This document shows, piece after piece, positions 5,425 to 34,502 of a stretch of 34,502 bases of DNA. Each line of letters starts with the position of its first letter. Positions within the stretch are counted from its first letter, which is position 1. The stretch covers positions 381 to 34,882 of the forward strand of contig PLMX01000255.1 of the NCBI GenBank assembly GCA_003142635.1, written 5' to 3'. The DNA comes from Syntrophaceae bacterium (GTDB lineage: Bacteria > Desulfobacterota > Syntrophia > Syntrophales > UBA2185). The notes under the pieces were generated by a model. The model was given only the letters and a program-made list of their open reading frames with translations, searched no databases and was not told the DNA's origin. A program made the translations under genes and the position numbers.

Positions 5425-5436
5425 GGAGACAGGCCA

Positions 5437-7891: not shown

Positions 7892-7920
7892 ACAAAAGAA
7901 AAGGAGGGTCAGAATAAATC

Positions 7921-18059: not shown

Positions 18060-19001
18060 TCAAAATACTTTATTAGGCTTAATCGCTCGCTTAGCGCTCG
18101 ATGATTGGATGCATGCGTCGGCGGCCTGATCTCCGGCCTTTCTCTGCAACAGCTCCCAATCTTCTTCAACCATTTTTTGGATCTGCTCGAAGTCTTCGGC
18201 AGTCAGGTGACTGAACCGTCCCTGAACCTCGAAATAGTCCTGCACAGGTCGTTGCTTGCCTTTGTAATTGATGGTATAGCGGACGCCGTCTTCCACCTCG
18301 TACAGGGGGAAGATATTTGCCTGGACGGCCATCCGCGCCGTTTTTACCGATATCTCGGAGGGAATGCGCCATCCGGGGGGACAGCTCGCGAAGATGTGCA
18401 GGAACTTCGATCCTTTGATTGATTTGGCTTTTTTAACCTTCCGAACAAGGTCCTCCGGAAATGCTATGTTTGCCGTCGCTACATAGGGGATACGGTGCGC
18501 CACGAGGGCTTCAACGATATTTTTCTTGCGCAATCTTTTCCAGTCCTGTCCGGGTGTGGTCGTCGTCCATGCCCCATACGGCGTCGAAGAGCTGCACTGG
18601 ATGCCGGTATTCATATAGGCTTCATTGTCGTAGCAGACATAAATAAAATCCTCATTCCTTTCGACGGCGCCGCTCAGTGCCTGAAAACCGATGTCGAATG
18701 TGCCGCCGTCGCCGGCCCACGCAACGACCGTGGTATCCGTATCGCCCCTCATATCGAGGGCAGCACGCAGTCCGGAAGCCACGGAGGCGCCCGCCGGCAT
18801 GGGGGCGTGGACTACGGGGATCCGCATGACGGACTGGGGATAAACCCCGACGATGACACCCGTGCAACTTGCGGGGATAACCAGAATGGTATTTTCTCCC
18901 ATAGCCTTTGTGAAAATGCGCAGAGCAATAACTGCGCCGCAGCCCGGACAGGCCGCGTGCCCTGAACACATGAATTCACGCTCGTCAGCGTCCAATCGCA
19001 T
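18060..19001 (-). CDS. porB: 2-oxoacid:ferredoxin oxidoreductase beta subunit (set 2)
   Basis: A 313-residue thiamine-diphosphate-binding beta subunit of the four-subunit 2-oxoacid:ferredoxin oxidoreductase family. Cluster cysteines are seen at residues 19 and 22 (CPGCG) and 46, with a further one in the FASCPPGW segment. The ThDP/Mg motif is GDGGTFDIG (97-105) with the downstream YDNEAYMNTG. With the alpha, gamma and delta subunits it would oxidatively decarboxylate a 2-oxoacid to an acyl-CoA, reducing ferredoxin, or run in reverse. The start overlaps the porA end by 17 bp. The C-terminal tail of about 20 residues is longer than in the second paralogue. Substrate (pyruvate, branched-chain, aryl) is not decidable. 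Confidence 0.9.
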   Translation of the reverse strand: MRLDADEREFMCSGHAACPGCGAVIALRIFTKAMGENTILVIPASCTGVIVGVYPQSVMRIPVVHAPMPAGASVASGLRAALDMRGDTDTTVVAWAGDGGTFDIGFQALSGAVERNEDFIYVCYDNEAYMNTGIQCSSSTPYGAWTTTTPGQDWKRLRKKNIVEALVAHRIPYVATANIAFPEDLVRKVKKAKSIKGSKFLHIFASCPPGWRIPSEISVKTARMAVQANIFPLYEVEDGVRYTINYKGKQRPVQDYFEVQGRFSHLTAEDFEQIQKMVEEDWELLQRKAGDQAADACIQSSSAKRAIKPNKVF

Positions 19002-20160
19002 GTTTCACCTCTCGCAGTCCTATCCAGACGCTTTTATCTGAGGGGACATCGCCGTCCTTTGTTGCCTTATATATCTCTTCGAGAACCGCCTTCGTGACAT
19101 CCCTGCCACCGAGGCCGACAACATAACCGAAAACAAGGGGACGGTCCTGTCTATTGCAGAGCGCAGCCCGAACTTCCTGCAGGAATATGCCCCCTGCACC
19201 GGATGAAAAATTGCGGTCAATAACAGCAACTTTCTTTGCAGACTTAAGCGCCCTGCAGACCAGTTCCACAGGGAATGGCCGAAACATCTTCATCTTCAGG
19301 AGAGCGACTTTCTCGCCTCTGTCCCGCAGGTCTTCAAGAAGCAGACGGGCGGTGCTCGTAATAGTTCCCGACGTGACGAGAATGATCTCCGCATCGTCAC
19401 AGTTGATCGCCTCGACAGCGCCATAGCGGCGGTTGAATAAAACCTCAAATTCCTTCTCAACGTCATCAAAGCGCTCCGGTACCTGATCCATAGCCACTGC
19501 ATTGTCATGACGAATTTCCATATATATTGAAGGAGGCGCGATGGAATTCACTGTGAACGGATTCTTGGTATCGACCTTGAATGCGGGATTGTACGGGGGA
19601 AGAAAACGATCCACTTCTTCCTGCTCGGGAATATCCACCGGTTCATAGGTATGGGAGAGTAAGAAGCCCTCCATCACAACCATGACAGGAAGGTTTACCC
19701 ATTCCGCCAGGCGGAACGCCTGGAGGGTTGTGTCAAAAACCTCCTGCCCGTCTTCACAGTATAACTGTATCCAGCCTGTGTCGCGCTGGGACAGGCTGTC
19801 GGTCTGGTCTGACCAGATATTCCACGGTGCGCCGAGCGCCCGGTTCACTTCGGCCATAACAATAGGCAGACGCGATCCTGCCGTCCAGTGCAGCATTTCG
19901 TGCATATAAGCAAGGCCGGCTGAGGAGGTCGCAGTAAATGTCCTGACGCCGCCGCACGCTGCTCCGACAAGGCTCGCGAGACAGGAGTGCTCACTCTCCA
20001 CCCTTAAATAACGGGCATCCATTTTACCGGTTGCGCAGTAATCCGATAAGACCTCTACGATATGTGATTGGGGTGTGATAGGATAAGCAGAGATTACTTG
20101 AACCCTTGCCAGCCGGACGGCCTCCGCGACAGCAGAATTGCCTTCGAGCACCTGTTTCAT
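18985..20160 (-). CDS. porA: 2-oxoacid:ferredoxin oxidoreductase alpha subunit (set 2)
   Basis: A 391-residue alpha subunit. It has the ISAYPITPQSHIVEVL motif near the N-terminus, ESEHSCLASLVGAA, the TATSSAGLAYMHEMLHW segment and SQRDTGWIQLYCEDGQEVFDT. The C-terminal part has KMKMFRPFP and VIDRNFSSGAGG. These are family signatures for the pyrimidine and transketolase-type domains. The start overlaps the upstream flavoprotein stop (ATGA at 20157-20160), so the subunits are translationally coupled. Its paralogue at 25326-26471 is clearly homologous over its full length, implying duplication of the whole set. Confidence 0.9.
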   Translation of the reverse strand: MKQVLEGNSAVAEAVRLARVQVISAYPITPQSHIVEVLSDYCATGKMDARYLRVESEHSCLASLVGAACGGVRTFTATSSAGLAYMHEMLHWTAGSRLPIVMAEVNRALGAPWNIWSDQTDSLSQRDTGWIQLYCEDGQEVFDTTLQAFRLAEWVNLPVMVVMEGFLLSHTYEPVDIPEQEEVDRFLPPYNPAFKVDTKNPFTVNSIAPPSIYMEIRHDNAVAMDQVPERFDDVEKEFEVLFNRRYGAVEAINCDDAEIILVTSGTITSTARLLLEDLRDRGEKVALLKMKMFRPFPVELVCRALKSAKKVAVIDRNFSSGAGGIFLQEVRAALCNRQDRPLVFGYVVGLGGRDVTKAVLEEIYKATKDGDVPSDKSVWIGLREVKHAIGR

Positions 20161-21902
20161 GACCCCTCCTCACCCATGATTACGGCATGGCGAGGACATT
20201 CCGTAAAGCACACACCGCATCCTTTGCAGTAATCATAGTTGATATGCCGGTTTTCCATGTGCTGACCTCTGATGACCGCTGCATCCGGGCAAAATACATA
20301 GCAGTTGTCACACTCGTCGCAGAGGCCGCAATTGAAGCAGCGTCCGGACTCCCGGAGAGCCGTCTCAGCGGTTATCGGGAGCTCGATCTCATTAACCGAG
20401 CGGCTGCGATCTTCTACAGCAAGACGCGGTTGAGTTACTCTGGTTTCATTCTGGAAATAGTCTGTATTGATTTCTGCGTATTGGACAAGATGAGAACTGC
20501 GGAGGCCGCGCGGTCCTCCGAGATATGCTTCCATGGAGAGCGCCGGCCCATCTCCGACCACGCATGCCTCAAGCCGGGGTTTGATCTCATCGATTCCTCT
20601 TTCAAAATACGTGTCCAGCACCATCGCCGCCTGCTTGCCGGAGGCTATGGCCTGTGCAACATTTTTTGCTTCATTGGTCAGATCCCCGCCATAGATTACC
20701 GGCGCGCCGCCTTCTTCCAAAAGTAGAACGCAGTGACTAAAGCCTATAACTCCCCGCTGCGCCAAAGGCGGGCTATACCAGAGTTCAGCCGCTGTGGCGC
20801 CCGTCGCCGCAAATATGTGATCGACAACTTTTTTAACGGTCTTTTTTCCGTCGAATACTATCCGGCCGCGGCCATCTTTATCCCGGCCCTTGATTTTCAT
20901 TTTCCGCAAAAGGAGTCTGAGCCGGCCGTCATGACATTCAATGGCCGACGGGGCTACAAGTTCTTCCAGTCCCACGCCCTCTTCCAGCGCCATCGCTATT
21001 TCATCTCCGAATGCCGGCATATCCTCCCGGCGCCTTCGATACAGGATGGCGGCATTCCCGCCAGACATGGTGATGGTTCTGGCAACGTCAACCGCCGTGT
21101 TGCCGCCCCCGATGACAACTGAAAAGCCGTCACATAAAGGCCTCTCACCCTGCCTCGCTCTTCTCAAAAAATCCAGCCCGTCCTTAACGGATTCCGGGGT
21201 CTCTCCCGCTATGCCGAGCGGCGCGCCATGCGCATGGCCGCAGCCGAGAAAAACGGCGCTGTAACTTCTTCTGAGTTCATGGAATGATTCAGACGACACG
21301 GCCTTCTTAGTAAGTATATGCACACCCTGGCTTCGAATCCGGGCGATCTCGGATTGAAGAACAGCCAAGGGCAGACGATATTCCGGTATCCCCCAGCGCA
21401 AGATTCCCCCTGCTTCAGGAAGCGCCTCGAAAATATCACATGGATAACCCAGCATTGACAGGAACCATGCCGCGGAAAGTCCGGCTGGACCGGCGCCAAT
21501 GACGGCTATTCTTTGATTTCTTTTGGGGAGCTTTTGCGGTGTGGTCGCGAGACCTTTGCCGGCAGCCGTATCAGCGAGAAACCGTTCCAGGGTGTGAACA
21601 GCGATGGGCGAATCAAAATCCTTTCTGTTGCAAACGCTCTCGCAGGGGTGGAAGCAGACGCGCCCACATACACCCGGTAAAGGATTCTCCCGGAGGATCA
21701 TTTCCCACGCTTCGTTGAACAGCCCCTGCCTTGCCAGCATCTCGATCATGCCGATATCCTCGCCGGCCGGACAACCGGCGCTGCAGGGCGATTGCTTGTC
21801 CTGGTAACGAGGTTTCAGAAAACGCCAGGAGCCCGTCTTGTTGCTTTCCGTTGTTTCATAAGTTATGACTACAAACGGTTTTTGGCCCATCGCAACGCTC
21901 AT
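20157..21902 (-). CDS. Fused PorD ferredoxin / GltD-like NAD(P)H flavoprotein
   Basis: A 581-residue protein with a nested layout. Residues 12-36 match the N-terminal PorD segment (TGSWRFLKP at 23-31) seen intact in the separate porD at 26468-26752. A GltD-like NADPH:acceptor flavoprotein follows. It has an N-terminal iron-sulfur region with C40/C44 and C79-C91, FAD motif VIGAGPAGLSAAW (from 134), and NAD(P) motif VIGGGNTAVDVAR. The last 60 residues (from 522) are a ferredoxin with two cluster motifs, CDNCYVFCPD and CKGCGVCFTECPR. The likely role is to link the oxidoreductase to NAD(P)H. A TGAGGCG ribosome-binding site precedes the ATG. Phenylglyoxylate:acceptor oxidoreductase is a known relative that also uses a flavoprotein subunit. 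Confidence 0.88.
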   Translation of the reverse strand: MSVAMGQKPFVVITYETTESNKTGSWRFLKPRYQDKQSPCSAGCPAGEDIGMIEMLARQGLFNEAWEMILRENPLPGVCGRVCFHPCESVCNRKDFDSPIAVHTLERFLADTAAGKGLATTPQKLPKRNQRIAVIGAGPAGLSAAWFLSMLGYPCDIFEALPEAGGILRWGIPEYRLPLAVLQSEIARIRSQGVHILTKKAVSSESFHELRRSYSAVFLGCGHAHGAPLGIAGETPESVKDGLDFLRRARQGERPLCDGFSVVIGGGNTAVDVARTITMSGGNAAILYRRRREDMPAFGDEIAMALEEGVGLEELVAPSAIECHDGRLRLLLRKMKIKGRDKDGRGRIVFDGKKTVKKVVDHIFAATGATAAELWYSPPLAQRGVIGFSHCVLLLEEGGAPVIYGGDLTNEAKNVAQAIASGKQAAMVLDTYFERGIDEIKPRLEACVVGDGPALSMEAYLGGPRGLRSSHLVQYAEINTDYFQNETRVTQPRLAVEDRSRSVNEIELPITAETALRESGRCFNCGLCDECDNCYVFCPDAAVIRGQHMENRHINYDYCKGCGVCFTECPRHAVIMGEEGS

Positions 21903-21924: not shown

Positions 21925-22476
21925 TTATAAAAACCGGACTTCTCGATACGCTGCTTCTGCAGCGGCCACATTCCTCTCGGGATCGGACGGCACTTCCTTC
22001 CTTATTGCAGCAATGACGGTATCCATAGGCGGCGCCTCCATCATGCGCGCGAAGGCGCCTATCATGGCTGTATTGACAATGGGGTGCGTCCGGCTTCCTA
22101 TCCTGTTCTTGAGGGCAATGCTCGTTGCATCCACAATGGCAACCCTGTGGTTTGCGAAGGCGCTCATATCGGAAGGGGGTATGGAGCAGTTAAGCAGAAT
22201 CCAACCGCCCGGCTTGAGTCCTACCGTGACGCCGATGTCTTCAATGAGGCTCTGGTCTTGAACGACCACATGATCAGGCGTGGTCACACCTGTTCTCGCT
22301 AAAATCTTCTTGCTCGCGAGACGGAGATACGCCTCTACCGGGGCCCCCCGCCGTTCAACACCGAAGAAAGGGAAACTCTGGACCTGATAACCGGCCTGAA
22401 AAAAAGCCTTGGCGAGTAAGGTGGCCAACACGACGGTACCCCCGCCGCCGCGTCCATGAAAGCGGATTTCGAGCAT
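21925..22476 (-). CDS. porG: 2-oxoacid:ferredoxin oxidoreductase gamma subunit (set 2)
   Basis: A 183-residue gamma subunit with the hallmark EIRFHGRGGGGTVVLATLLAKAF start, FPFFGVERRGAPVEAYLR and the late IVNTAMIGAFARM motif. This subunit forms the CoA-binding domain in this family. The second glycine-rich position reads GRGGGG rather than the GRGGQG of the paralogue. ATG 22476 is chosen because the 18 bases before it contain a GAGGGG ribosome-binding site; GTG 22494 would include that site in the coding region. It is the first gene of the set, 22 bp upstream of the flavoprotein. Confidence 0.9.
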   Translation of the reverse strand: MLEIRFHGRGGGGTVVLATLLAKAFFQAGYQVQSFPFFGVERRGAPVEAYLRLASKKILARTGVTTPDHVVVQDQSLIEDIGVTVGLKPGGWILLNCSIPPSDMSAFANHRVAIVDATSIALKNRIGSRTHPIVNTAMIGAFARMMEAPPMDTVIAAIRKEVPSDPERNVAAAEAAYREVRFL

Positions 22477-22568
22477 CTTCTTTCTTCCCCTCACTCTATT
22501 AACTTAAGCTGATCTCTCTCATCATGCCCGTCAGTGCACAGGGGCGAAGGTGTGACTGATGTTCAGCG

Positions 22569-23468
22569 TCATTTCAAATGGTGAAGCCGCTTCAGGCGAC
22601 CGATAAATTTCTTTGCGAGGGCGGAAGCAAGATCCTCTTTTCCCATCCCCCCCTTTAATGCCTCGATGATGACATCCATGCCGGCTTTCACTTCCTCGTG
22701 CGGTCCCGGCAGGGCAATGACGTAAGAGGGATGAACGTACGCGACCCCGATCCTGACGCCGTCTTTTTCGTGACGCCCCGTTCCTTTCTCGTAATGGATT
22801 ATGTATGGCGTGGACGCCGAAGGGTCGATCCTCAGAAGGGCCTCAACCATCCTGTCCTTATCCTCGGCCCCTACTCCGCCGGTCGTGATGATCAGTCCAT
22901 AGCCCTCGCTCAGGGTCCGGCGAAGTATCGGGACAATACTCTCCAGATCGTCTTCGAGCGCCTCGCCTACCGTGACGCTGTATCCTTCCTTCGTCAGCCG
23001 GTCTGTGATGTAGGGGCTGTTGGTGTCCTGAATCATGCCCCTCCGGACCTCGAACCCGGATGGAAAGACTATTGCCCTCTTCCGTATCCGCTCTGAGATT
23101 TCGCGCTGCATCCGCGCCATTCCACCGAGGATCTCGCCAGCCGTCTCCTGATTCTCGATGGCAATCAACCCGAGAATGCCATCGGAGTGAAGACTTGTCT
23201 CGGGGGTGAGACTGACCCCCGGGATCGCCGCCAGCGCCTTGAGCAGGGCGTCCCTCTTGCCGATAATATCCTCGGCCCTTACGGATTTCTTCAGGACGTC
23301 AAGAGTGATGAGTTCCTCACGCACATCGACAACCATGATCTCCTTCTTGTCGAGGTGCAGAATCCCGGCAAACTTCTCTGCAATCAATCCCAGGTCGACA
23401 TCGACGATATGTATGGGACTGATCCATATCTCCGTCTTTTCAAAAAGTTCAAGTTCCAACCTTCTCAC
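22569..23468 (-). CDS. MoaB/CinA-type molybdopterin-binding domain protein
   Basis: A roughly 299-residue protein. The C-terminal half is a MoaB/Mog/CinA-like fold with VRRGMIQDTNSPYITDRL, the acidic GEALEDDLESIVPILR, LIITTGGVGAEDKDRMVEAL and VIALPGPHEEV. The N-terminal 125 residues (ISPIHIVDVDLGLIAEKFAG onwards) are not recognised. Such domains bind molybdopterin or act on nucleotide cofactors. The start is uncertain: GTG 23468 or TTG 23459 gives a short overlap with the preceding NadC-like gene, whereas ATG 23519 would overlap it by about 70 bp and is less likely. It is coupled to the NadC-like gene, between the two oxidoreductase sets. Its substrate is unknown. Confidence 0.75.
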   Translation of the reverse strand: MRRLELELFEKTEIWISPIHIVDVDLGLIAEKFAGILHLDKKEIMVVDVREELITLDVLKKSVRAEDIIGKRDALLKALAAIPGVSLTPETSLHSDGILGLIAIENQETAGEILGGMARMQREISERIRKRAIVFPSGFEVRRGMIQDTNSPYITDRLTKEGYSVTVGEALEDDLESIVPILRRTLSEGYGLIITTGGVGAEDKDRMVEALLRIDPSASTPYIIHYEKGTGRHEKDGVRIGVAYVHPSYVIALPGPHEEVKAGMDVIIEALKGGMGKEDLASALAKKFIGRLKRLHHLK

Positions 23469-24279
23469 CCGTCTCTGCCGTAATATCCATTCTCGTGTCA
23501 AGAAGCGGCGCATCGACAACGGCCTGTCCGATGTCGACGATCTCTACAGGCAGCTTCTTCAGTTCATGGAGATCGCCGATTCCGATGTTTCCTGCAAAAG
23601 CTATTTGCACGCGGTCTCTCAGCGCCTTTGCCCGCAACCCGGAATCGATCTTTACGATATCCTCTTTTCTGCCTGTATCGATCATGATGATGTTGCCGCC
23701 GCCCTCTGCGGCGACGATTGCTTCCCGGAGGAGGCTATGTCCTACCCCCTTCAGCTGTATCACCAGGGTGTGTCCCTTCAGGCCTTTCACGGATTGCAGC
23801 GTCTTTGCGACCCCGCCCAATGCTTTGACGTAGTTCTTATCCAGGTAAAGGAAGGGTATATCTGCCATGCGGTACGGGATGCCTCCGTCGGCGATCGCCT
23901 GCCGGACCAGGTCTTTGATCGGCAGCGGCATTTTCTTCCATGCCCCGCATACCACCTTCAGGTTCTTTCCGGCGGCCTTCTTTGCCTTCCGGGCGGCCGT
24001 GGCAATACCGGAGGCCTTTGAGATCCAGCCGATAAGCTGCTCTTCACCCACGGCCAGCTGCTTGGCGCTTCCCGTGAGAACGGCGATGACCTCCTCCGGC
24101 CTGACCCTCGCCCCGTTTTTCTTGCATTTCTTCAAATGGATTCCCAGATTCTTGCAGGCCTTTTTCAGCCATTTGATTCCGGAAAGGACGCCCTCTGTCT
24201 GGGCGGAGATGTGGGCAATGTACTTCTTTTCCCGGATGCCGGCGAAGATGATATCACGGATATCCCGTTCAGGTAGCAT
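23449..24279 (-). CDS. NadC/ModD-like phosphoribosyltransferase homologue, degenerate active site
   Basis: A 276-residue protein of the quinolinate phosphoribosyltransferase (NadC) fold, related to ModD. The segment GEEQLIGWISKASGIATAARKA (about 78-99) matches the NadC core helix, and the C-terminal barrel (IIMIDTGRKEDI, VQIAFAGNIGIGDLHEL) follows the family order. The catalytic TRKTTPGLR-type segment is replaced by CGAWKKMPLPIK (111-122), and the GGG-x2-HR loop reads GGIPYRM. The usual quinolinate chemistry therefore looks unlikely. It overlaps the molybdopterin-binding-domain gene, so they probably act together. A GGGAGGA ribosome-binding site precedes the ATG. The 177-bp gap to porB (24280-24456) holds nothing I recognise. 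Confidence 0.7.
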   Translation of the reverse strand: MLPERDIRDIIFAGIREKKYIAHISAQTEGVLSGIKWLKKACKNLGIHLKKCKKNGARVRPEEVIAVLTGSAKQLAVGEEQLIGWISKASGIATAARKAKKAAGKNLKVVCGAWKKMPLPIKDLVRQAIADGGIPYRMADIPFLYLDKNYVKALGGVAKTLQSVKGLKGHTLVIQLKGVGHSLLREAIVAAEGGGNIIMIDTGRKEDIVKIDSGLRAKALRDRVQIAFAGNIGIGDLHELKKLPVEIVDIGQAVVDAPLLDTRMDITAETGEKVGT

Positions 24280-24456: not shown

Positions 24457-25347
24457 CTATCCTGCCAGACGCTTCAGATATTCCCGTTCCTTCTCCACTC
24501 TTTCTTCAAACTGCTGGAGGTTCTCTTTCGTGAGATTGCGAAAGCGCCCCTGGAGGGCAAAATAATCCCGGAGCGGCTTTTCCGGCCGTTTGGAACTCAG
24601 GGTGTACTTCTCCCCGTTTTCAATTTCATAAAGGGGAAATATTCCTGTCTCGGTGCCCAGCTTGGCAAGCCTGATCGTCATCTCCGGAGAATAGCGCCAC
24701 CCCGTTGGGCAGGGAGAAAAGATCAGGATGAACCTCGTGCCCCCTATCTCCTTCGCTTTCTTCACCTTCCTGATCAGGTCGGCGGGATATCCGATGGAGG
24801 CCGTCGCAATGTAAGGGATGTTGTGCGCGGCCATGATGCGGACGATGTCCTTCTTGGGCGTATCTTTCACGAAGGGGGCGGGAGTCGTAGTCGTCCAGGC
24901 GCCCGCAGGGGTTGAAGAGCTTCGCTGAATCCCCGTATTCATATAACCTTCATTATCATAGCAGACGTATATGATATTGTCATTTCTCTCGGCCGCTCCC
25001 GACAGGGCCTGAAGGCCGATGTCAAACGTGCCTCCGTCGCCGGCCCACGCGAGGACATGTATGTCTTCCTTGCCCATGACATCCAGGGCCGCCCGAATTC
25101 CTGAAGCCGATATGGCCGTCGATTCAAAAGGAATCCTGAGGACAGGAATCTTAAGTGAAGAAAAAGGGAAACCCGCGGCAATTGTCCCCATGCACGAGGG
25201 CGGAATGACAATAATGGTTCTCGGACCCAGTCCCTTCAATACATATTTCATAGCCAGCGCGGCTCCACAGCCGGGGCAGGCCGTATGTCCTGAGTAAACA
25301 AGCTCCTCTTCGGGTATAGGGAATTTTATTTGAGCAGGCCTATCCAT
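24457..25347 (-). CDS. porB: 2-oxoacid:ferredoxin oxidoreductase beta subunit (set 1)
   Basis: A 296-residue thiamine-diphosphate-binding beta subunit. Cluster cysteines are C24 and C27 (CPGCG), C52 and one in SPCPTGW. The ThDP motif is GDGGTFDIG (103-111) with YDNEGYMNTG downstream and an SSTPAGAWTTTTP loop. It shares this layout with the paralogue at 18060-19001 but lacks that protein's C-terminal extension. Its start overlaps the end of porA by 22 bp. It is the last of the porG-porD-porA-porB set. The substrate 2-oxoacid cannot be assigned. Confidence 0.9.
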   Translation of the reverse strand: MDRPAQIKFPIPEEELVYSGHTACPGCGAALAMKYVLKGLGPRTIIVIPPSCMGTIAAGFPFSSLKIPVLRIPFESTAISASGIRAALDVMGKEDIHVLAWAGDGGTFDIGLQALSGAAERNDNIIYVCYDNEGYMNTGIQRSSSTPAGAWTTTTPAPFVKDTPKKDIVRIMAAHNIPYIATASIGYPADLIRKVKKAKEIGGTRFILIFSPCPTGWRYSPEMTIRLAKLGTETGIFPLYEIENGEKYTLSSKRPEKPLRDYFALQGRFRNLTKENLQQFEERVEKEREYLKRLAG

Positions 25348-26471
25348 GTGCTTTCTCCTCGGTTCGGCATATTATGCGTTTGTTCAATGATTAATTCAAT
25401 GTCTTTATCGGTCACATCCTTGCCTCCCAAGCCGGCGATAAACTCATAAACAGGCAGACCGCAATTGATCCCCTGGAGGGAGGCCTTGACCTCCTGTGCA
25501 AAAATCCCTCCGCATCCGGGAGAGAAGTCACGGTCGATCACAGCCACCTTCTTTGCTTTTCGAAGCGGCTCACAGATCTGCTTTCCGGGGAAAGGACGAA
25601 CCATGCGGATCCGGAGGACGCCCACCTTCATTCCCCTGGCCCGGCAGCGGTCGGCAACGACGCGGCACGTGCCGGCAATTGTTCCTGCTGTAACCAATAT
25701 AAGGTCGGCATCTTCACACAGATAGGTTGAGACGAGACCATAATCCCGGCCAAACACCTTTTTAAATTCGGCATCGATTTCACTGCAGAAGGTCTTGGCC
25801 TCCTCCATGTCCTGATGCATCTTGTATCGGAAATTGATATAGTAATCCGTCGTTGACCCGAACATGCAGGGATTATCAACGTCGAGGCACTCCCGGGCTG
25901 GCGCGGGCGGGAGGAAGAGGTCGACCTGGCTCTGCTCCGGAAGGTCAACAATCTCATAGGTGTGAGAAAGGATGAACCCTTCCAGATTGACCATGACAGG
26001 AAGCAGTAATTTCTCCGATATCCTGTAGGACTGAATGATTGTGTCAAAGACCTCCTGGCCGCTCTCACAGTAGAACTGCAGCCAACCCGTATCCCGCTGG
26101 GAGAGACTGTCGCTCAGATCCGCCTTCAGATTGAAAGGGCTTGCCAGCGCCCTGTTGACGTTTGCCATGACTATCGGGAGCCGCAACCCTGAGGCATAAT
26201 GCAGCAACTCATGCATCAACGCCAGCCCCTGGGAGCTTGTTGCCGTGAATGTTCTAGCCCCCATCACTGACGCGGAAATGCACGCGGCCATGGCGGAATG
26301 CTCCGACTCCACGTTGATGAACTTGGCCTGAAGGGCTCCCGTTGCGCAGAACCCGGCCAACATCTCCACTATGGAAGACTGAGGGGTGATGGGATACGCT
26401 GCAATGACTTGGGCCTTCGCGGCCACAACAGCATACGAGACGGCCTGGTTGGCAGAAATAACTTTCTTCAT
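25326..26471 (-). CDS. porA: 2-oxoacid:ferredoxin oxidoreductase alpha subunit (set 1)
   Basis: A 381-residue alpha subunit with IAAYPITPQSSIVEML, ESEHSAMAACISASVMGA, TATSSQGLALMHELLHYA and SQRDTGWLQFYCESGQEVFDT. The C-terminal part carries RIRMVRPFPG and VIDRDFSPGCGG. The start overlaps the porD stop (ATGA at 26468-26471). The sequence parallels the other alpha subunit along its length, but with differences around the loop after residue 200 that may bear on substrate choice. Confidence 0.9.
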   Translation of the reverse strand: MKKVISANQAVSYAVVAAKAQVIAAYPITPQSSIVEMLAGFCATGALQAKFINVESEHSAMAACISASVMGARTFTATSSQGLALMHELLHYASGLRLPIVMANVNRALASPFNLKADLSDSLSQRDTGWLQFYCESGQEVFDTIIQSYRISEKLLLPVMVNLEGFILSHTYEIVDLPEQSQVDLFLPPAPARECLDVDNPCMFGSTTDYYINFRYKMHQDMEEAKTFCSEIDAEFKKVFGRDYGLVSTYLCEDADLILVTAGTIAGTCRVVADRCRARGMKVGVLRIRMVRPFPGKQICEPLRKAKKVAVIDRDFSPGCGGIFAQEVKASLQGINCGLPVYEFIAGLGGKDVTDKDIELIIEQTHNMPNRGESTWIGLLK

Positions 26472-26784: not shown

Positions 26785-27333
26785 TTAAAAAACCACCTTC
26801 TCATAAGCCTCCCGGGCGGCCTTGGCATTATCCTCGGGATGTGTTGGCACATTCTCGCGCACGGCATCCATGATCGATCCTATAGCGACCATCCCGGTTG
26901 CCCTTGAGAACGCACCGATGATCGTCGTATTGACGATCGGAACGGATGAGCTCCCCAGGCCGTGCTCCTGTGCGATGGTGTTTGCATCCAGTGTCGCCAC
27001 GCGATAGGGGCCCAGAAAAACATAGTCCTCCGGTTTCTTATCGCTGTTGATGATGATCCAGTGTCCTTCCTTCAGACCCTGGACAATCCCCTTCCTTCTG
27101 GTCAGGCTTGAGTCAAGAACGATCAGGCAGTCCGGTTCATAGATTCCGAATCTCTCCCTGATCTCGAAGTCGCTCACGCGCGTAAAGGCGACTACGGGCG
27201 CACCTCTTCTCTCAGCCCCGAAGTTCGGGAAAGCCTGAACGAATTTCTTTTCCTTGAAGAAGGCGGAGGCGAGAACCGTCGATGCTACGACCGCGCCCTG
27301 TCCTCCTCTTCCATGAAACCTGATTTCGTACAT
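26785..27333 (-). CDS. porG: 2-oxoacid:ferredoxin oxidoreductase gamma subunit (set 1)
   Basis: A 182-residue gamma subunit with MYEIRFHGRGGQGAVVASTV at its N-terminus, FPNFGAERRGAPVVAFTRV and the late IVNTTIIGAFSRAT motif. ATG 27333 is chosen over ATG 27348 because a GGAG ribosome-binding site lies between them. It begins the set and lies 167 bp downstream of the LarA-like gene, a gap with a small hairpin, so it may have its own transcription start. Confidence 0.9.
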   Translation of the reverse strand: MYEIRFHGRGGQGAVVASTVLASAFFKEKKFVQAFPNFGAERRGAPVVAFTRVSDFEIRERFGIYEPDCLIVLDSSLTRRKGIVQGLKEGHWIIINSDKKPEDYVFLGPYRVATLDANTIAQEHGLGSSSVPIVNTTIIGAFSRATGMVAIGSIMDAVRENVPTHPEDNAKAAREAYEKVVF

Positions 27334-27360
27334 TCGCTTCCACTCCATTTCTTATTTGAG

Positions 27361-27500: not shown

Positions 27501-28961
27501 CTATTGCCTGTTAACCTTTACCTGTTTGTCTTTCAGCACCGCGGCACTTAGACCGCGCTGACGGCACCACTTCGGAAGCAACTCTCTCTCCACCTTCTCT
27601 TCAATGCCCGAGACCTTGGACTTGAGCAGTTCGGCCAGGGGCTCAGTCATGTTGAATCCGTTTGCCGCACCGTCAAATACGAGGATATTCGAGGTACCGC
27701 TGGCCCGCGTCACGAAGTCGACCGCCTCCTGCAGCCCTTCCGTCATCACCGCATATTTCATGTACTGGGGATTCTGCGGGTCCGCATTCATATGATTCAC
27801 CATGGCGCGACCCACCACAACGGTTGGAACATGCTGCGAAAAGAACGTGCATGGCAATCCGCTCATGCAGTAGTTGTTGATCATCCATTTGACGGCTGGA
27901 TTCAAAGGAGGGAGCTGCTCGATAAGACGATGGCCCAGTTCGTCAAAATACATCTCCGTGTAGCGTGAAAACGGAGGGAATCCCTGGTCCAGATCGAACT
28001 CATCCACAGAGAGCCCCGCAAAATTGTCGTACACGATCCCGCCCGCTCTCATGTACCCGATGGGCATGGGACCGTCGACGATCACATTGCATTGGTCGAT
28101 GTGTTCCAGCAAGGTAAGCAGTTTCCCATACCATCTCAACGTATCGACCGCCATATACTCATCCTGCTTCAAGAGATCGTTGTTCGCGCTGACCTCGGCG
28201 ATCCCGCTGGGTGCAACGTTCAGCATGACGGAAAAGACAAACTTGCTCTGGACGAAGTCCGAGGTGAACATAGCTCTGGGAATGATGTTCGACGATCTCG
28301 GGCCGAAGTTCTGGTGATATGTCGAACGCGTCTCCATCCTCGCATAGGACATGGCAAAGGGCTTGACGATACGGTTGAGCATCCTATGGTTGTGGAGCTC
28401 CCTCAGATCATTGTTGTGGGCGTGGATAACCCACTTCGCATCATAGGCCCTCTTGAGTCCATAAAGGGTCCCGAACTCTGTCTGGATGGGAAAACCTTCA
28501 TCAATGGGCGTCATCCCCATGGCCTTCCCGTTGAAATGCTGATCAAGCCCGAATTTCTTGATGTACTCCTCTGTCTCCCTGAACCGCAGCCCCACACCGG
28601 CACGCAGCCGTATATCCTTGGTACCGGTCCTCTCCGCGATCACATCGTGTGTAACCTTGATCATCTCCGCATAGGCAGTCCCGCCATAGAGCGTGAAACC
28701 ATGGTGCGACGCCAGGATGTTGACAGAATCCCCGGGCTTTATCTTGGTCATGTCAACCCCGTTCAAAGAATCCCGGGTCGCCTGACGGATCGCTTCAATC
28801 CCACGCTCGCTCGGGAAAATGGGCTTGGGAATAGAGGGAATGAGTTCCCGAACGGTCAGGGAGGTCATCCCCGGCAATTCTGCGGCTCTCATCTTCAACA
28901 GCTCCGGAGCAATGCAGTACTGTGACTTGTTAGGAGCGGCAGGTTTTAGTGTATTTCCCAT
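27501..28961 (-). CDS. LarA/DUF2088-like protein
   Basis: A 486-residue protein. Residues about 40-130 follow the layout of the LarA (nickel-pincer racemase) N-terminal domain: a PIFPSERGIEAIRQAT helix, a GDSVNILASHHGF strand, then a helix and the RLRAGVGLRFRETEEYIKKFG turn. The last occupies the place where LarA proteins have a GTHR-like motif. The late segment YAVMTEGLQEAVDFVTRASG with ILVFDGAANGFN resembles the LarA C-terminal domain. Several family-typical catalytic motifs are altered, and no larB, larC or larE is present. Known relatives racemise or epimerise 2-hydroxyacids. A TGAGG ribosome-binding site precedes the ATG, 10 bp after the GltD-like gene. The assignment rests on pattern order, not a search. 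Confidence 0.5.
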   Translation of the reverse strand: MGNTLKPAAPNKSQYCIAPELLKMRAAELPGMTSLTVRELIPSIPKPIFPSERGIEAIRQATRDSLNGVDMTKIKPGDSVNILASHHGFTLYGGTAYAEMIKVTHDVIAERTGTKDIRLRAGVGLRFRETEEYIKKFGLDQHFNGKAMGMTPIDEGFPIQTEFGTLYGLKRAYDAKWVIHAHNNDLRELHNHRMLNRIVKPFAMSYARMETRSTYHQNFGPRSSNIIPRAMFTSDFVQSKFVFSVMLNVAPSGIAEVSANNDLLKQDEYMAVDTLRWYGKLLTLLEHIDQCNVIVDGPMPIGYMRAGGIVYDNFAGLSVDEFDLDQGFPPFSRYTEMYFDELGHRLIEQLPPLNPAVKWMINNYCMSGLPCTFFSQHVPTVVVGRAMVNHMNADPQNPQYMKYAVMTEGLQEAVDFVTRASGTSNILVFDGAANGFNMTEPLAELLKSKVSGIEEKVERELLPKWCRQRGLSAAVLKDKQVKVNRQ

Positions 28962-28971
28962 CTTATGTACC

Positions 28972-30999
28972 TCACTTACTCTTAAAAACGGTTTCGATTA
29001 GTTTAATGTCATCATCAAAATGAAATCCCCGTGGCTCATACTTCTTCTTCAGTTCGGGGTCCAGATCCCACAGGGTGAATGTCTTTCCAAAGGTCTGGTG
29101 TGTGCTCCCCAACGTGACCGGGAATCCGGACGCCTCCAGAAGTTTGACGATCGACTGGATGCAAAGGACGGCGCAACCGGTGCGGGCCCCTGTCATCCGG
29201 GAGATGTCTTCAGGAGTTTTGGCCCCTTTCAGAATGGCGGCAACGACCTCTTCAGCGCGTGTCACATTGCAGTAACAGATGATCTGCTTCGGATGGATAT
29301 GCACCTTCTTGCAGATGCGCATGATCTCTTCTTGATCGAACTCGCTGGCGTCGACGGCTATGGTATAAGGCTCCTGTATCGGTTCGATGGTGATCGCGAA
29401 TACAGGACATCGGTCCACGCAGTTCAAACAGCCTTTGCACTCTGCGAACGTGTAAGTGGGCGGTGCGGCGCATCCGAAACACCTTTGTGCTTCGTTCACG
29501 GCCTGGTCCTCCTGATAGCCGAGGCTGACCTCTTCAAAAGAGCGGACCGCCTGCCCCAGATCGAGATGACCGGTCTCGTTCCTCGCCGCCGGATAGAAGT
29601 AATCGCGATTCATCTCTTCATAAGTCACGACCTCGCGCGCGGCCATCTCCTCTTGGCGCGCATTTCCCTTTTCGAGGAAACGATGGATGGCCAAAGCCGC
29701 TTTTTTACCCGCACCGATTGCCTCGGATACGGTGCCTGTCCCCTTGGTTGCATCCCCTCCGGCAAAAATGCCCTTGATATTGGTCTCGAAAGTCATATCG
29801 TCGATCTTGATCGTTTTGGAGGGGTTTCTCTCCAGCTCGACAAAATCTTTATCGTCCGGTCTCTGACCGATCGCGACGATCACCATATCGGCCGCAATGG
29901 TTGGGGCAGCACCATCTCCATACTCCGGCGCGAATCTTCCCCGCTCATTAATGACGCTCGTACACTGGATCGTTTCCAGACCCACGATTTTGCCCCGATC
30001 GGCCAATATCTTTCCGACCCCCAGGCTGGGATGGATGATAACCCCTTCCCCTCCGGCCTGTTCGATCTCCACATCCTGGGCCGGCATCCTGTCTTTGCAG
30101 GTCAGGTCGCAAGACTCCAGGCAGATCAGGTGAACCTCCTTGGCCCCGAGTCGCCGGGAAAGCCTGGCAGAATCGATGGCCACATTGCCGCCGCCGATGA
30201 CCGCCACGCAGTCCCCCATTTTCACCTTTTCCCCAGAGTTCGCCCTCTTCAGAAAATCAACCGCAGACAAGACCCCCTTGGTCTCTTCCCCAGGAACGCC
30301 GACCTTAAGACTTGCCCATGAACCTGTTGCGACAAAGACCGCCTTGTATCCCTGCTTAAAGAGCTCTTTGGCGTCCTTTACAGGCGTATTCGTCTTGACA
30401 TCGACCCCTGACTCTTCGATATATCTGATCTCGTTGTCCAGGACCTGCTTCGGCAGCCGATATTCAGGGATACCGTAACGCATCATGCCGCCTGCCTTCT
30501 CAGCACCCTCGAAAAGAGTGACACGGTAACCCATCCGGCCCAAGTGGAAGGCACAGGAGAGTCCTGCCGGTCCCGATCCCACCACGGCGACGCTCTCCAT
30601 CCGGACCACCTTTGGCTTGACCGGCTTATAGCCCATCTTCACGGCAGTATCGGCAATAAAACGCTCTACAGACTTGATCGACACGCCTTCGTCAAATTCG
30701 ATCCGGTTGCACTCTTTTTCGCAGGGATGATGACAGACCCGGCCCGTAGCACCGGGAAGCGGGTTTGTCTCTCGGAGCAAATCATAAGCCTCAAGGTATT
30801 TCTTCTGTCCGATCAGATAATTAAACCCTTCGATGTCGTTTCCAATCGGACATTGAACGGTACAAGGAGAGATCTTGATCTTCTCCAGCGGCCGGCTTAT
30901 GGATGGGGTGTAGGCCTTCGTCGGGCAAACATGGGTGCATGTTTTGCAGCCGATACATTTTTCCAAAATGAAATGTGAATTCGTTATAACCTTTTTCAT
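28972..30999 (-). CDS. GltD-like NAD(P)H flavoprotein with ferredoxin and BFD domains
   Basis: A 675-residue electron-transfer flavoprotein. In order it has: an N-terminal 4Fe-4S motif (C15, C18, C21, C25), the GltD iron-sulfur region (C47, C51 and GRVCHHPCEKECNR), an FAD motif VVGSGPAGLSCAF, and an NAD(P) motif VIGGGNVAIDSARL. A C-terminal ferredoxin motif (CKGCLNCVDRCP) follows. Next is a [2Fe-2S] BFD-like domain with CYC and GCAVLC about 33 residues apart. This many redox centres suggest electron exchange among ferredoxin, NAD(P)H and another partner, possibly by bifurcation; this is inference. An AGGAGG ribosome-binding site precedes the ATG. It is followed 10 bp later by the LarA-like gene, so the two are probably co-functional. 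Confidence 0.88.
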   Translation of the reverse strand: MKKVITNSHFILEKCIGCKTCTHVCPTKAYTPSISRPLEKIKISPCTVQCPIGNDIEGFNYLIGQKKYLEAYDLLRETNPLPGATGRVCHHPCEKECNRIEFDEGVSIKSVERFIADTAVKMGYKPVKPKVVRMESVAVVGSGPAGLSCAFHLGRMGYRVTLFEGAEKAGGMMRYGIPEYRLPKQVLDNEIRYIEESGVDVKTNTPVKDAKELFKQGYKAVFVATGSWASLKVGVPGEETKGVLSAVDFLKRANSGEKVKMGDCVAVIGGGNVAIDSARLSRRLGAKEVHLICLESCDLTCKDRMPAQDVEIEQAGGEGVIIHPSLGVGKILADRGKIVGLETIQCTSVINERGRFAPEYGDGAAPTIAADMVIVAIGQRPDDKDFVELERNPSKTIKIDDMTFETNIKGIFAGGDATKGTGTVSEAIGAGKKAALAIHRFLEKGNARQEEMAAREVVTYEEMNRDYFYPAARNETGHLDLGQAVRSFEEVSLGYQEDQAVNEAQRCFGCAAPPTYTFAECKGCLNCVDRCPVFAITIEPIQEPYTIAVDASEFDQEEIMRICKKVHIHPKQIICYCNVTRAEEVVAAILKGAKTPEDISRMTGARTGCAVLCIQSIVKLLEASGFPVTLGSTHQTFGKTFTLWDLDPELKKKYEPRGFHFDDDIKLIETVFKSK

Positions 31000-31254: not shown

Positions 31255-32655
31255 CTAAAACTGTTTCAGGATATCCGGCTCCAGGAAATCCTCCAGCCTT
31301 ATTCTGGACATCACGGATTCAGGTATGCAGAGCCTTTTGGCGAAGCCGCGGGGATCGACAGGCTTGGTCGCATCAATCCCACCCTTTGTCGTCAAGATGT
31401 CATTGCCCGACGGGTCTAACCTCGTGCCCATCATGCCGGGGATGACCACAAGGTCCTTGTCCCACTGTGATCGTGTAGCGATCGCCCAGAGCACATGCTC
31501 ATCATCAAAGATATTGACGTCATCATCCACCACAACAACATGTTTTATCCGGTAATCGGAGCTAAGGGCCGTTGCTATGGCGGTCTTAGGCTCTCCATCG
31601 TTGGACTTCCGGATCTGGATATACGCGTGGAGCCTCGCTGTCCCTGAGACAGGTACGTGTACCCCCACAACCCCGGGCACCACCGCCCTGATTCTGTTAT
31701 AAAGATAAGCCTCGATCATCGGTGCGTCAAGTAAGAGGTGATCCGCATGGCCCGGCATGATGTCGAGATAGAAGGCGTCTTTCCTTCGCGTTATCGCTTT
31801 CACCGTCGTCACGGGGTTTAGCCTCTGGCCGCCGTAATACTGGGTATATTCGCCGAAGGGCGCCTCGATATCAACCTGCTCGTAGGACATTTCGGCTTCT
31901 ATGACGATTTCCGCCTGTGCTGGAACGAGCATGTCCTTCCCCCAAGTTTCGGAAGGGGTCAGCTCGACGGGTTCGCCTATGATACCGCCGATTATCTGCG
32001 GTTCATCCGTGAAGATCTTCGTTTGCGCCCCCATATAGAAAGCAGGATGATGTCCAATCATAATGATTATAGGAACGTTGCGTTTGAGGGCCTTGTATTT
32101 CTGGAAGACATAATTTGTGTGACGCGCCGCGTTGAAATTTACGACAAGGCTTTTGGGGCCTGCGACATAGATCCTGATGATTGCGCAATTGACCCATCCT
32201 GTCTCCGGGTCTTTTATCCAGACGCTGGGGCTGGTGAAGTATGGCCCTAAATCCATTTCATGATGAGTCACGATCGGCAGTTCATATAAATCTACATCAT
32301 CGCCTTTCTGGATAATGCCTTTGACCATCGCTTTGGACTTATCGATTACGACCGGAGGCACAGGCTTCTCTTTCTCGATATAGTCCAGGGGAAGCCTCTG
32401 AACCGTAGACCCGATAGCATCTGCGAGCCTCTCCCTCGAGCCAAAAAGATTGATCACTACCGGCAGCTTTGAGATTGATCCGTTCAGGTTCCGGACCTTC
32501 TCGAAGATCAAAACGGGCTGCTTTTTTCTCGACTCCACCTGCTGCAGGATGGCAGGAATTTCAAACTCTGGAGAAATCTCCTTCTTAACCCTGAGAATAT
32601 GGGACGGCATATCCCTTTCCAGGTGTTCTATATACGCTCGCAGACCTTGGTTCAT
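31255..32655 (-). CDS. UbiD-family prenylated-FMN (de)carboxylase
   Basis: A 466-residue member of the UbiD family, which reversibly decarboxylates aromatic or unsaturated acids using prenylated FMN. The family's essential Arg-Glu-Glu set is visible: R161 (CAIIRIYVAG), E264 and E269 (EAPFGEYTQYYGGQ). Other features are the N-terminal IDKSKAMVKGI, the MIGHHPAFYMGA loop and the HADHLLLDAPMIEA segment. Length resembles the hydroxybenzoate/vanillate decarboxylase group, but the substrate is not readable. No UbiX prenyltransferase gene is present in the window. An AGGAGG ribosome-binding site precedes the ATG. It lies 87 bp downstream of the acyl-CoA synthetase subunits. Confidence 0.9.
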   Translation of the reverse strand: MNQGLRAYIEHLERDMPSHILRVKKEISPEFEIPAILQQVESRKKQPVLIFEKVRNLNGSISKLPVVINLFGSRERLADAIGSTVQRLPLDYIEKEKPVPPVVIDKSKAMVKGIIQKGDDVDLYELPIVTHHEMDLGPYFTSPSVWIKDPETGWVNCAIIRIYVAGPKSLVVNFNAARHTNYVFQKYKALKRNVPIIIMIGHHPAFYMGAQTKIFTDEPQIIGGIIGEPVELTPSETWGKDMLVPAQAEIVIEAEMSYEQVDIEAPFGEYTQYYGGQRLNPVTTVKAITRRKDAFYLDIMPGHADHLLLDAPMIEAYLYNRIRAVVPGVVGVHVPVSGTARLHAYIQIRKSNDGEPKTAIATALSSDYRIKHVVVVDDDVNIFDDEHVLWAIATRSQWDKDLVVIPGMMGTRLDPSGNDILTTKGGIDATKPVDPRGFAKRLCIPESVMSRIRLEDFLEPDILKQF

Positions 32656-32742: not shown

Positions 32743-33450
32743 TCACTCACTGAGGATAATCCGGGCATCGACTATGATGGCCCCCTTCTCCATGACGAAA
32801 ATAGGATTGAGATCCATCTCCGCAATCTCTGAGTTGGCCTCGGCCAATTTCGAAACTTGTACGAGCATATCGCACAGGGCATCGATGTCTTTCGCGGATT
32901 TTCCCCGGATCCCGGTAAGAAGAGGATATCCCTTGATCTCTTCCACCATGTCCCGGGCGTCCTCGCGGCTCACGGGAACAACACGGAAAGAGACGTCTTT
33001 CATGACTTCCACCCAGATTCCGCCCAGCCCGAACATGATCACCTTCCCGAAGGTGGCGTCCGTCGCCAATCCGATTATGACCTCTTCGCCGCCGCTCACC
33101 ATGTGATAGAGCAAAACCCCCTCTATCCTGGCGTTTGCATCATAGGCCTTTGCATTGGCTATGATTTCCTTGAATGCCCCTTTGACCTTCTCCGGATTTT
33201 CAAGATTCACCTTCACGCACTTGGCATCGGTTTTATGTATGATCTGCGGTGAGACTATCTTGGCCACAACCGGGAATCCGAGTTCGCTCGCGAATGCCGC
33301 TGCTTCTTCAGCCGAGACGGCCACCTTCTCCTTTGTAACGGCGCAGCCATATGAGGCGAGAAGCGCTTTTGCTTCCGGCTCCAACAAAACATTCCTCTTG
33401 GCTTTTCTGGCCCGGCTCAGAATTTCTTTTGCCTGCTCATGGGTATTCAT
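32743..33450 (-). CDS. ADP-forming acyl-CoA synthetase, ATP-grasp (beta) subunit
   Basis: A 235-residue ATP-grasp protein matching the beta part of NDP-forming acyl-CoA synthetases. It has EPEAKALLASYGCAVTKEKVA at the N-terminus, FPVVAKIVSPQIIHKTD with H72 at the place of the catalytic histidine in known enzymes, MVSGGEEVIIGLATDATFG and the LGGIWVEVMKD loop. It couples acyl-CoA and ADP + phosphate to acid and ATP, or the reverse. ATG 33450 is chosen because it overlaps the alpha subunit stop (ATGA) and starts the conserved domain; the longer frame to 33576 lies within the alpha gene. Acid specificity is unknown. Confidence 0.9.
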   Translation of the reverse strand: MNTHEQAKEILSRARKAKRNVLLEPEAKALLASYGCAVTKEKVAVSAEEAAAFASELGFPVVAKIVSPQIIHKTDAKCVKVNLENPEKVKGAFKEIIANAKAYDANARIEGVLLYHMVSGGEEVIIGLATDATFGKVIMFGLGGIWVEVMKDVSFRVVPVSREDARDMVEEIKGYPLLTGIRGKSAKDIDALCDMLVQVSKLAEANSEIAEMDLNPIFVMEKGAIIVDARIILSE

Positions 33451-34502
33451 CGCACTGCCTCCTTCTCCAATCGCTCCACCGCTTTCTTGTATCTTATCAG
33501 GGCACCCAGCGCTTTTGCTCCCCTTTCCGGAGTCAGGAAGAGGGGGACCTTCTTCTGCAGCAGGACTTCCTTGCACTCATCCACTTCTTTTCCGGCGGAC
33601 GGCCAGATTACAATGAACGGCTTCTTGCAGTTGGCCTGTATCTCCAGCATAGCGTCCAGGGCAGCCTTTGGGTTATTTTCTCCCAGGCCGACGAAGGCCA
33701 TCATGTCAATATTGTCGTCCGCTTCGATGATGTTGGCCCGTACAACAAACGGATTCTTTCCTTTCAGCATTGCCATCGCACCGAGGTCGATGTCGGTCGG
33801 GTTCGTCCTGCTGGCTCCGGGGATCTCTTCCACGAGTCTCCTCACGGTCTCCTCCGAAAACGGGGGGACTTCCAGGCCCACCTCTCCGCACATGTCAGCG
33901 GCCGCAACACCCGGACCTCCGGGCCCCGCAATGATGCCGACCCTCGGCCCCTTGGGAATTCCTTGTCCGAACCACACGTTCTCGAAGGCGATAAGGTAAT
34001 CCTGGGCCTGCTCGAAGTCTTCCACACGAATAATCCCCGCCTGCCGGAAGGCGCCGTCATAAACTGCGATAGAACCGGCAATAGAACCGGTGTGGGAGGC
34101 TGTCATCTTTCGGCCCACCTCCGTTCTCCCGACCTTATAAACGAGTACGGGTTTGACACGGGAGAGGGGTTTGGCTATTTCCAGAAAACGCTGCCCGTCT
34201 CTGAAGCCTTCCAGATAGACGAAGACTGCGTTTGTCTTGGGGTCGTCACGCAGGTAATCCATGAAGTCAATCACGGAGACATCACATTCGTTTCCGATGG
34301 AAATGAACTTGCTGAAGGAGAGTCCCCGGACCTCGCCCATATTGATGAAATATCCTCCACCGCCTCCCGACTGGCTGATGACCGAAACACCGCCTACGTC
34401 TTTCGGAAATGTGCTTCTCCTCGCCCAGGGGTGACCGGATTCCGGGCAGAGGATGCCGACGCAGTTTGGTCCTATGAGCTTCATGCCGCCCTGGCGGGCC
34501 AT
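33447..34502 (-). CDS. ADP-forming acyl-CoA synthetase, CoA-binding (alpha) subunit, partial
   Basis: The visible 351 residues are the C-terminal part of the alpha (CoA-binding) subunit; the apparent Met at the window edge is internal, and the gene runs on beyond 34502. Visible motifs include LIGPNCVGI and ASHTGSIAGS, whose histidine (residue 137 here) is the expected phosphohistidine. GIIAGPGGPGVAAADM and PTDIDLGAMAMLKG follow. The downstream beta subunit overlaps by 4 bp. Such enzymes conserve ATP from acyl-CoAs in fermentation and syntrophic metabolism. The alpha and beta parts are separate here, not fused. Confidence 0.88.
   Translation of the reverse strand: MARQGGMKLIGPNCVGILCPESGHPWARRSTFPKDVGGVSVISQSGGGGGYFINMGEVRGLSFSKFISIGNECDVSVIDFMDYLRDDPKTNAVFVYLEGFRDGQRFLEIAKPLSRVKPVLVYKVGRTEVGRKMTASHTGSIAGSIAVYDGAFRQAGIIRVEDFEQAQDYLIAFENVWFGQGIPKGPRVGIIAGPGGPGVAAADMCGEVGLEVPPFSEETVRRLVEEIPGASRTNPTDIDLGAMAMLKGKNPFVVRANIIEADDNIDMMAFVGLGENNPKAALDAMLEIQANCKKPFIVIWPSAGKEVDECKEVLLQKKVPLFLTPERGAKALGALIRYKKAVERLEKEAVR

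Follow-up and report, generated by a model that had tools for sequence, protein, structure and literature searches.

A NadC-fold protein and a MoaB/CinA-type protein as proposed maturation partners of a probable LarA-superfamily protein

The window, as we call the whole 34,502-nucleotide stretch of DNA that was analysed, is one part of contig C204 of a Syntrophaceae-like MAG (G000). Between about 34.5 kb and 18 kb, almost every large gene is on the minus strand. In reading direction this run comprises a split NDP-forming acyl-CoA synthetase (ATP-grasp and Succ_CoA_lig parts; 32743-34502), a UbiD-family decarboxylase (31255-32655), an oxidoreductase here called c2 (28972-30999), a 486 aa protein called c1 (27501-28961), a 2-oxoacid:ferredoxin oxidoreductase (POR) set, two genes called Q and M, and a second POR set. 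The first POR set encodes a gamma subunit (26785-27348) and, identified with Pfam and NCBIfam, an alpha (25326-26471) and a beta subunit (24457-25347). The second begins with its own gamma subunit (21925-22494) and runs on at 18060-21902. Q (23449-24279; 276 aa) and M (22569-23459; 296 aa) thus lie on the minus strand between two oxidoreductase sets and overlap, as originally predicted. The two acyl-CoA synthetase ORFs (32743-33576 and 33447-34502) share about 130 bases with their listed starts, and the real start of the ATP-grasp ORF is probably further inside than listed. Elsewhere in the window, a tetrapyrrole synthesis run (4156-8895) encodes glutamyl-tRNA reductase, a fused methylase/uroporphyrinogen-III synthase and ALA dehydratase, and is preceded by a cytochrome c assembly protein.

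Q was characterised by Pfam and NCBIfam searches, a family alignment and comparison with NadC. The quinolinate phosphoribosyltransferase fold that had been predicted for it is confirmed, with both domains above their gathering scores (PF02749, 42 bits; PF01729, 44 bits) and an hhalign match to NadC with a probability of 99 and an E-value of 1e-20. Q is not an ordinary NadC by score. It reaches 94 bits against TIGR00078, about half of the NadC cut-off of 198.4, and 22.3 bits against the ModD family TIGR01334, whose cut-off is 178.85. A separate NadC is encoded in the window's own genome (G000:C228).

Pocket residues were compared in a MAFFT alignment of 31 Q proteins and 15 NadC proteins, numbered as in Mycobacterium tuberculosis NadC, with the NadC-like row from genome G277 left out. 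In the M. tuberculosis enzyme the C3 carboxylate of the substrate is held by Arg139 and Arg162 and the C2 carboxylate by Arg105 and Lys172, and mutants of these residues or of His175 have no detectable activity (PMC4065032). In Q, Arg105 is replaced by Glu, Asp or Asn, Lys172 by Asp (31/31) and His175 mostly by Tyr. Arg139 becomes Trp, Phe or Tyr, an assignment made less certain by a two-residue gap in the hhalign alignment of this region. Lys140 is retained and Thr141 is a second Lys, giving WKK in 31/31. The loop His161 is gone and the neighbouring loop Arg162 is retained in nearly all, Glu201 is Gln in 31/31, and the Asp222 equivalent is kept. The Arg162 equivalent is the only one of the five quinolinate binders that Q retains, so that the set is incomplete. 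The original prediction described Q as a degenerate protein that had lost the catalytic Arg/Lys segment and the loop His. The Arg and the His are indeed lost, whereas the Lys is kept and has been joined by a second. The word degenerate does not fit: since the altered pattern is strictly conserved across phyla (Trp114, Lys115, Lys116, Asp147, Gln175 and Asp201 in Q's own numbering are almost invariant in Bacteria and Archaea), Q appears to be re-purposed rather than decaying. With one C3-carboxylate grip retained and both C2 grips turned acidic, the pocket would suit a nicotinate-type ring without a C2 carboxylate, and not quinolinate. In one MAG (G096; L137:8720-9368) an internal stop splits Q into two frames next to c1, c2 and M genes that look intact; this is either an assembly error or decay.

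M was examined by Pfam searches, an AlphaFold2 model and matches to the PDB. Its ORF could reach 23519, for a length of 316 aa, and homologues start with a motif like MELNLLEKTELW. Because the homologues begin there, the likely start codon of M is the TTG at 23459, which lies 11 bases within the end of Q. Counted from this start, the N-terminal domain has about 105-120 residues, not the 125 of the original prediction, which was right about the MoaB/CinA fold of the remainder (PF00994, 64 bits, residues 154-288 of the 316 aa ORF). The model has a pLDDT of 92, with an N-terminal domain of the order beta-alpha-beta-beta-alpha-beta. Residues 123-288 match Mog/MoaB (Z 15-17) and MoeA-type insertase domains (Z 16), the best Foldseek match is a CinA domain (E 1e-9), and the lists of PDB matches for the whole-M model are filled by this C-terminal domain. 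The loops TTGGVGAEDKD and LPGPNDE are retained. M reaches none of the MoaB, MoeA or CinA equivalog cut-offs (27.7 vs 222.4 bits for TIGR02667, 28.4 vs 243.15 for TIGR00200, 44.7 vs 293 for PRK01215). Mog transfers an adenylyl group to a phosphate and CinA cleaves phosphoanhydrides in pyridine nucleotides. By analogy, the 5′-phosphate of a pyridinium nucleotide may be the target of M.

The original prediction found the presence of the pair unexplained, and a partner is at hand in c1, which lies 3.2 kb upstream within the gene run. c1 matches nothing in Pfam or NCBIfam, including Lar_N (PF09861), and hmmsearch of its profile against PDB sequences returned nothing up to E 10. An AlphaFold2 model built with 19 sequences (pLDDT 87) is most similar to LarA. 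The first 11 PDB entries are all of the LarA family (Z 17.1-18.7, followed by Z 6.5), with 308-354 residues aligned at an rmsd of 3.9-6.0, and include lactate and malate racemases and two 'single-histidine' LarA-like enzymes. Foldseek places 7s91, 6d6z and 8ezh first (E 1e-8 to 1e-7, the next match at 4e-3). A comparison with 28 LarA sequences by hhalign is collinear, its E-value moving from 0.077 to 0.055 as sequences were added, where decoys gave 0.12-0.55. We set aside any identification as LarA by sequence alone, the hmmsearch being empty and the hhalign score marginal. The relation is proposed from the predicted fold and a residue pattern, and sequence profiles barely see it. In the profile alignment Lys200 of c1 coincides with the LarA Lys that tethers the nickel-pincer nucleotide (NPN), and His216 with the His that ligates nickel. 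All 32 c1 proteins compared have both residues, and the pair is 16 residues apart in c1 and LarA alike; Lys183 and His199 of the Isosphaera pallida enzyme, from which the residue roles are taken, have the same spacing (PMC12611868).

Other parts of the LarA site are not conserved in c1. The first catalytic His (His108) and the contacts to the NPN ribose and phosphate (Asp70, Arg73/Lys) align with Arg/Gly/Ala126 and with a Ser-x-His-Gly-Phe motif at 85-89. Without these residues, c1 might not bind NPN itself. Position 126 is Arg in 19 proteins and Gly or Ala in 12, a hint that there is more than one class of substrate. From the model and the residue pattern, we take c1 to be a LarA-fold protein that would carry a tethered metal-pyridinium cofactor, possibly with a somewhat different nucleotide part, and would use it for other chemistry. 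Canonical Lar_N proteins (PF09861) are encoded within two cassette neighbourhoods (L027:6665-7966 and L126:6200-7495); the c1 pathway may thus also involve an ordinary LarA homologue.

The next gene, c2, encodes a GltD-like NAD(P)/FAD oxidoreductase fused to a 4Fe-4S and BFD [2Fe-2S] domain. The part that is conserved in the cassette is the C-terminal ~175 aa (28972-29499), with one invariant set of four Cys and a BFD-type set of four Cys. Given these Cys sets, c1 probably gains or loses electrons via c2.

Genome contigs were scanned with Q. The window's Q is 93% identical to that of a second genome ('Syntrophaceae bacterium isolate fen_1145', L022), and beyond the genus the relatives are 38-50% identical. 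They come from Actinomycetota, Solincola, Clostridium, an Oscillospiraceae MAG, Dehalococcoidia, Desulfobacterales, Syntrophobacteria, Thermoproteota and Borrarchaeota. By tblastn, nearly every Q locus also encodes M, c1 and c2. c1, Q and M occur together, each time within 20 kb or less, in 27 distinct loci spanning Syntrophaceae, Desulfobacterales, Actinomycetota, Clostridia, Dehalococcoidia and Archaea, and in one locus (L040) Q and M are fused in a single ORF of 575 aa. Loci L042 and L043 were too short and were left out. The exceptions are a Q-M pair without c1 on a 10.7-kb contig (L035), a second Q copy with no c1 nearby (L037), c1-c2 without Q or M on a 7.7-kb contig (L130, in G124) and the fourth c1 copy of one genome (L138, in G247). 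Linkage to por genes, which the original prediction proposed as a check, is peculiar to the genus (the window and L022), with a por-like gene loosely near the pair in L027 and L030.

The same association is seen when whole genomes are counted. Among 297 relatives, c1 is found in nine, M in eight (E ≤ 1e-30) and Q in eight, all eight being the same genomes. A candidate Q-only genome (G277) was rejected, its match being an ordinary NadC (QRPTase_C, 204 bits). Among 391 Clostridia, c1 is found in seven and M in the same seven. Hypergeometric p-values for the co-occurrence of c1 and M, which ignore relatedness, are 7e-15 and 4e-15, respectively. The carriers among the 297 belong to five families, and two genomes of the window's own genus (G002 and G003) are without the genes. 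Thus, the cassette likely moves between lineages as a set, and patchily. Copy numbers differ within it. One genome (G247) has four c1 genes, one Q and one M, and another (G212) has two c1, one Q and one M, as would be expected if a single maturation set serves several enzymes. Mirror-tree distance correlations are 0.64 for Q-M, 0.36 for c1-M and 0.05 for c1-Q. They give no support to strict co-inheritance of c1 with the Q/M pair; the poor correlation with Q and the modest one with M suggest that c1 has been exchanged between lineages. Q and M are part of a cassette that is widespread, seems not to have been described before and centres on a new LarA-like branch.

We consider it fairly probable that Q and M serve the maturation of c1, a LarA-superfamily enzyme, and that they make, modify or install its NPN-type pyridinium cofactor. 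From the linkage, the co-occurrence, the LarA fold of c1 and its Lys-x15-His match, the conserved altered pocket of Q and the MoaB/CinA-type domain of M, we infer the site of the cofactor, the chemistry of Q and M and the reaction of c1 as follows. Lys200 of c1 would carry a nickel-pincer-type pyridinium-nucleotide metal cofactor, and His216 would ligate the metal. The ligand of Q would be a pyridinium nucleotide of the nicotinate type (3-carboxy or 3-thiocarboxy), not quinolinate. M would target the phosphate of this nucleotide, by nucleotidyl transfer as in Mog/Cnx1G or by phosphoanhydride cleavage as in CinA, or would help to install the cofactor. c1 would then perform a hydride transfer fed or drained by c2, that is, net redox chemistry and not racemisation, and c1 is probably a redox enzyme of the LarA superfamily. 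The original prediction offered a pterin- or pyridine-type cofactor. Linkage and co-occurrence support the pyridine type well. The pterin or molybdenum side is unsupported, since in the annotated neighbourhoods nothing connects the pair with molybdate transport or Moco genes. Neither outcome that the original prediction named as refuting was obtained: Q does not have a complete set of quinolinate-binding residues, and the pair is not tied to molybdate transport genes.

The position of the lar genes bears on the metal. In Clostridium magnum DSM 2767 (G114; L038/L140/L141), larB, c2, c1, Q, larC, M, cbiM and larE lie within about 13 kb on one strand. The cluster starts with LarB (C1:658958), c2, c1 (660758), a BenE-type transporter and Q, continues with a 2-oxopent-4-enoate hydratase-family protein, an acylating acetaldehyde dehydrogenase and a 4-hydroxy-2-oxovalerate aldolase, and ends with LarC (667563), M (668778), an IclR regulator, a CbiM-like protein (the last two assigned by reading rather than by family search) and LarE (671538). 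In G518, LarB and LarC directly follow the cassette, and LarC adjoins c1 in G631 and neighbours it in L126 and L128. The cofactor of the c1/Q/M system therefore likely contains nickel. Only linkage within clusters was counted here. Whole-genome presence of larB, larC and larE was set aside as proof; it is uninformative because canonical LarA (PF09861), found in 21 of 22 cassette genomes, needs NPN anyway.

Q and M could instead leave the cofactor unaltered, either as an independent replacement for LarB, LarE and LarC that builds ordinary NPN or as a dedicated supply of precursor. The NadC fold of Q would be a natural starting point for a pyridinium mononucleotide, and LarB, LarC and LarE were not found above cut-off in the cassette genomes G102 and G105, nor in the incomplete G106, while G108 is without LarB and LarC. 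They were likewise not found in the window's own genome. However, G102 and G105 hold canonical LarA that needs NPN, so that their missing genes may reflect incomplete assemblies. The sister species of the window's genome (G001) has larB, larC and larE in one place, and the homologous G000 contig begins only downstream of it; the absence from G000 is likely an assembly gap. Many cassette genomes have both gene sets, and in C. magnum and G518 the Lar biosynthesis genes share the cluster with Q and M, where they cannot be alternatives. We regard this explanation as unlikely.

It is also rather unlikely that Q and M act in the catabolism of a pyridine- or pterin-like pathway substrate, with c1 using ordinary NPN made by LarB, LarC and LarE. 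Catabolic genes and a BenE-type transporter are indeed among the neighbours. Against this reading, the neighbouring catabolic genes vary by locus, whereas Q and M do not, and a genome with as many as four c1 paralogues has a single Q and a single M. Canonical LarA enzymes, moreover, have no need of Q or M: PF09861 proteins are present in 21 of 22 cassette genomes, and such systems are known to run on LarB, LarC and LarE alone (PMC12611868). That Q is a dead scaffold, a chaperone without chemistry that shapes a complex with M and c1, would agree with the replacement of residues essential in M. tuberculosis NadC, but these substitutions are specific and hardly vary across Bacteria and Archaea, a pattern that suggests selection for a new active site and makes a dead Q improbable. 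Least probable of all is that Q is of ModD type and M of MoaB/MoeA type, serving a molybdenum or tungsten enzyme, for in spite of the MoaB/Mog/MoeA domain fold of M and a tungsten-type AOR gene near the pair in L135, both proteins fall far below the family cut-offs given above, the annotated neighbourhoods contain no identified mod, other molybdate transport or Moco gene, and the constant partner of Q and M has a LarA fold.

With Q and M as maturation proteins of c1, the neighbours suggest a possible reaction for the clostridial form: the reductive ring opening of 2-furoate to 2-hydroxypenta-2,4-dienoate. A hydride would be added to C5 of 2-furoate, and the ring would open to the substrate of the adjacent hydratase, after which the aldolase and the acylating acetaldehyde dehydrogenase would follow. 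Furoate would be fed by UbiD, as in the decarboxylation of furan-2,5-dicarboxylate, and by aldehyde enzymes. The hydratase lies beside the cassette in only 11 of the 27 loci and not in the window; six of the loci also have the acetaldehyde dehydrogenase and the aldolase, as has L130, outside the 27. UbiD is present in five of the 27 and BenE-type transporters in seven; besides the window, UbiD lies near the cassette in L026, L125, L132 and L135. An aldehyde dehydrogenase and an Fe-ADH are encoded in L125, and an AOR and an Fe-ADH in L135. The window has no hydratase or aldolase next to the cassette, and there the 2-oxoacid that results could be consumed by the POR sets. Alternatively, c1 might oxidise a 2-hydroxyacid with c2 as the acceptor. 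Other neighbours include a linalool dehydratase/isomerase-family protein among three c1 paralogues and a UbiD gene (L132:16342-17919, in G247), which suggests that the c1 family has further substrates. Near the cassette, a creatinase/prolidase-type M24 protein is encoded repeatedly (L025, L027, L030, L126, L129, L134, L135) and perhaps releases an amide-bound acid. In G492, a membrane H+-pyrophosphatase gene follows the catabolic genes (L125:13411-15372).

A bolder form of the maturation proposal, which we regard as tentative and doubtful, is that Q and M convert NPN or a precursor into a new cofactor variant, e.g., a dinucleotide, for use by what would be the first net-redox branch of LarA, and that c1 and c2 open furan-2-carboxylate and related rings without oxygen in anaerobic bacteria and archaea. 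In the literature searched, mostly outside subscription journals, we found no LarA or other NPN system described with NadC-, MoaB- or other molybdopterin-binding-type proteins, and no anaerobic ring opening of furoate. The LarA family is the only one known to have NPN enzymes, and all of its members described in the literature examined racemise or epimerise hydroxyacids. If the proposal is true, a second LarA branch with its own maturation proteins and an iron-sulfur partner would bring net redox chemistry to this organometallic cofactor, and two uncharacterised families would gain a function; their likeness to NadC/ModD and molybdopterin-binding proteins makes it easy to mislabel them. Should the furoate step hold as well, the cassette would be a gene set for the oxygen-free breakdown of furan acids from plant biomass. 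C. magnum DSM 2767 is a cultured strain with the whole set in one cluster, which makes the idea directly testable.

Each of the three proteins resembles a known system and departs from it. Q shares with NadC the fold, the domain order and the equivalents of Lys140, Arg162 and Asp222, and differs in the replaced equivalents of Arg105, Arg139, Lys172, His175 and Glu201. ModD is, like Q, a NadC-fold paralogue of unsettled function, but ModD adjoins molybdate transport genes, as in Geobacter sulfurreducens (PMC2700814), and Q does not. M has the C-terminal domain fold of MoaB/Mog and CinA (Mog Z 17), with the TTGGVG...D and PGP loops, and is set apart by an additional conserved N-terminal domain and by its linkage to a LarA-fold protein. 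c1 stands outside PF09861 and is almost always accompanied by c2, Q and M, yet it has the predicted two-domain LarA fold and the tether-Lys/Ni-His pair at the same spacing, and larB, larC and larE can share its cluster.
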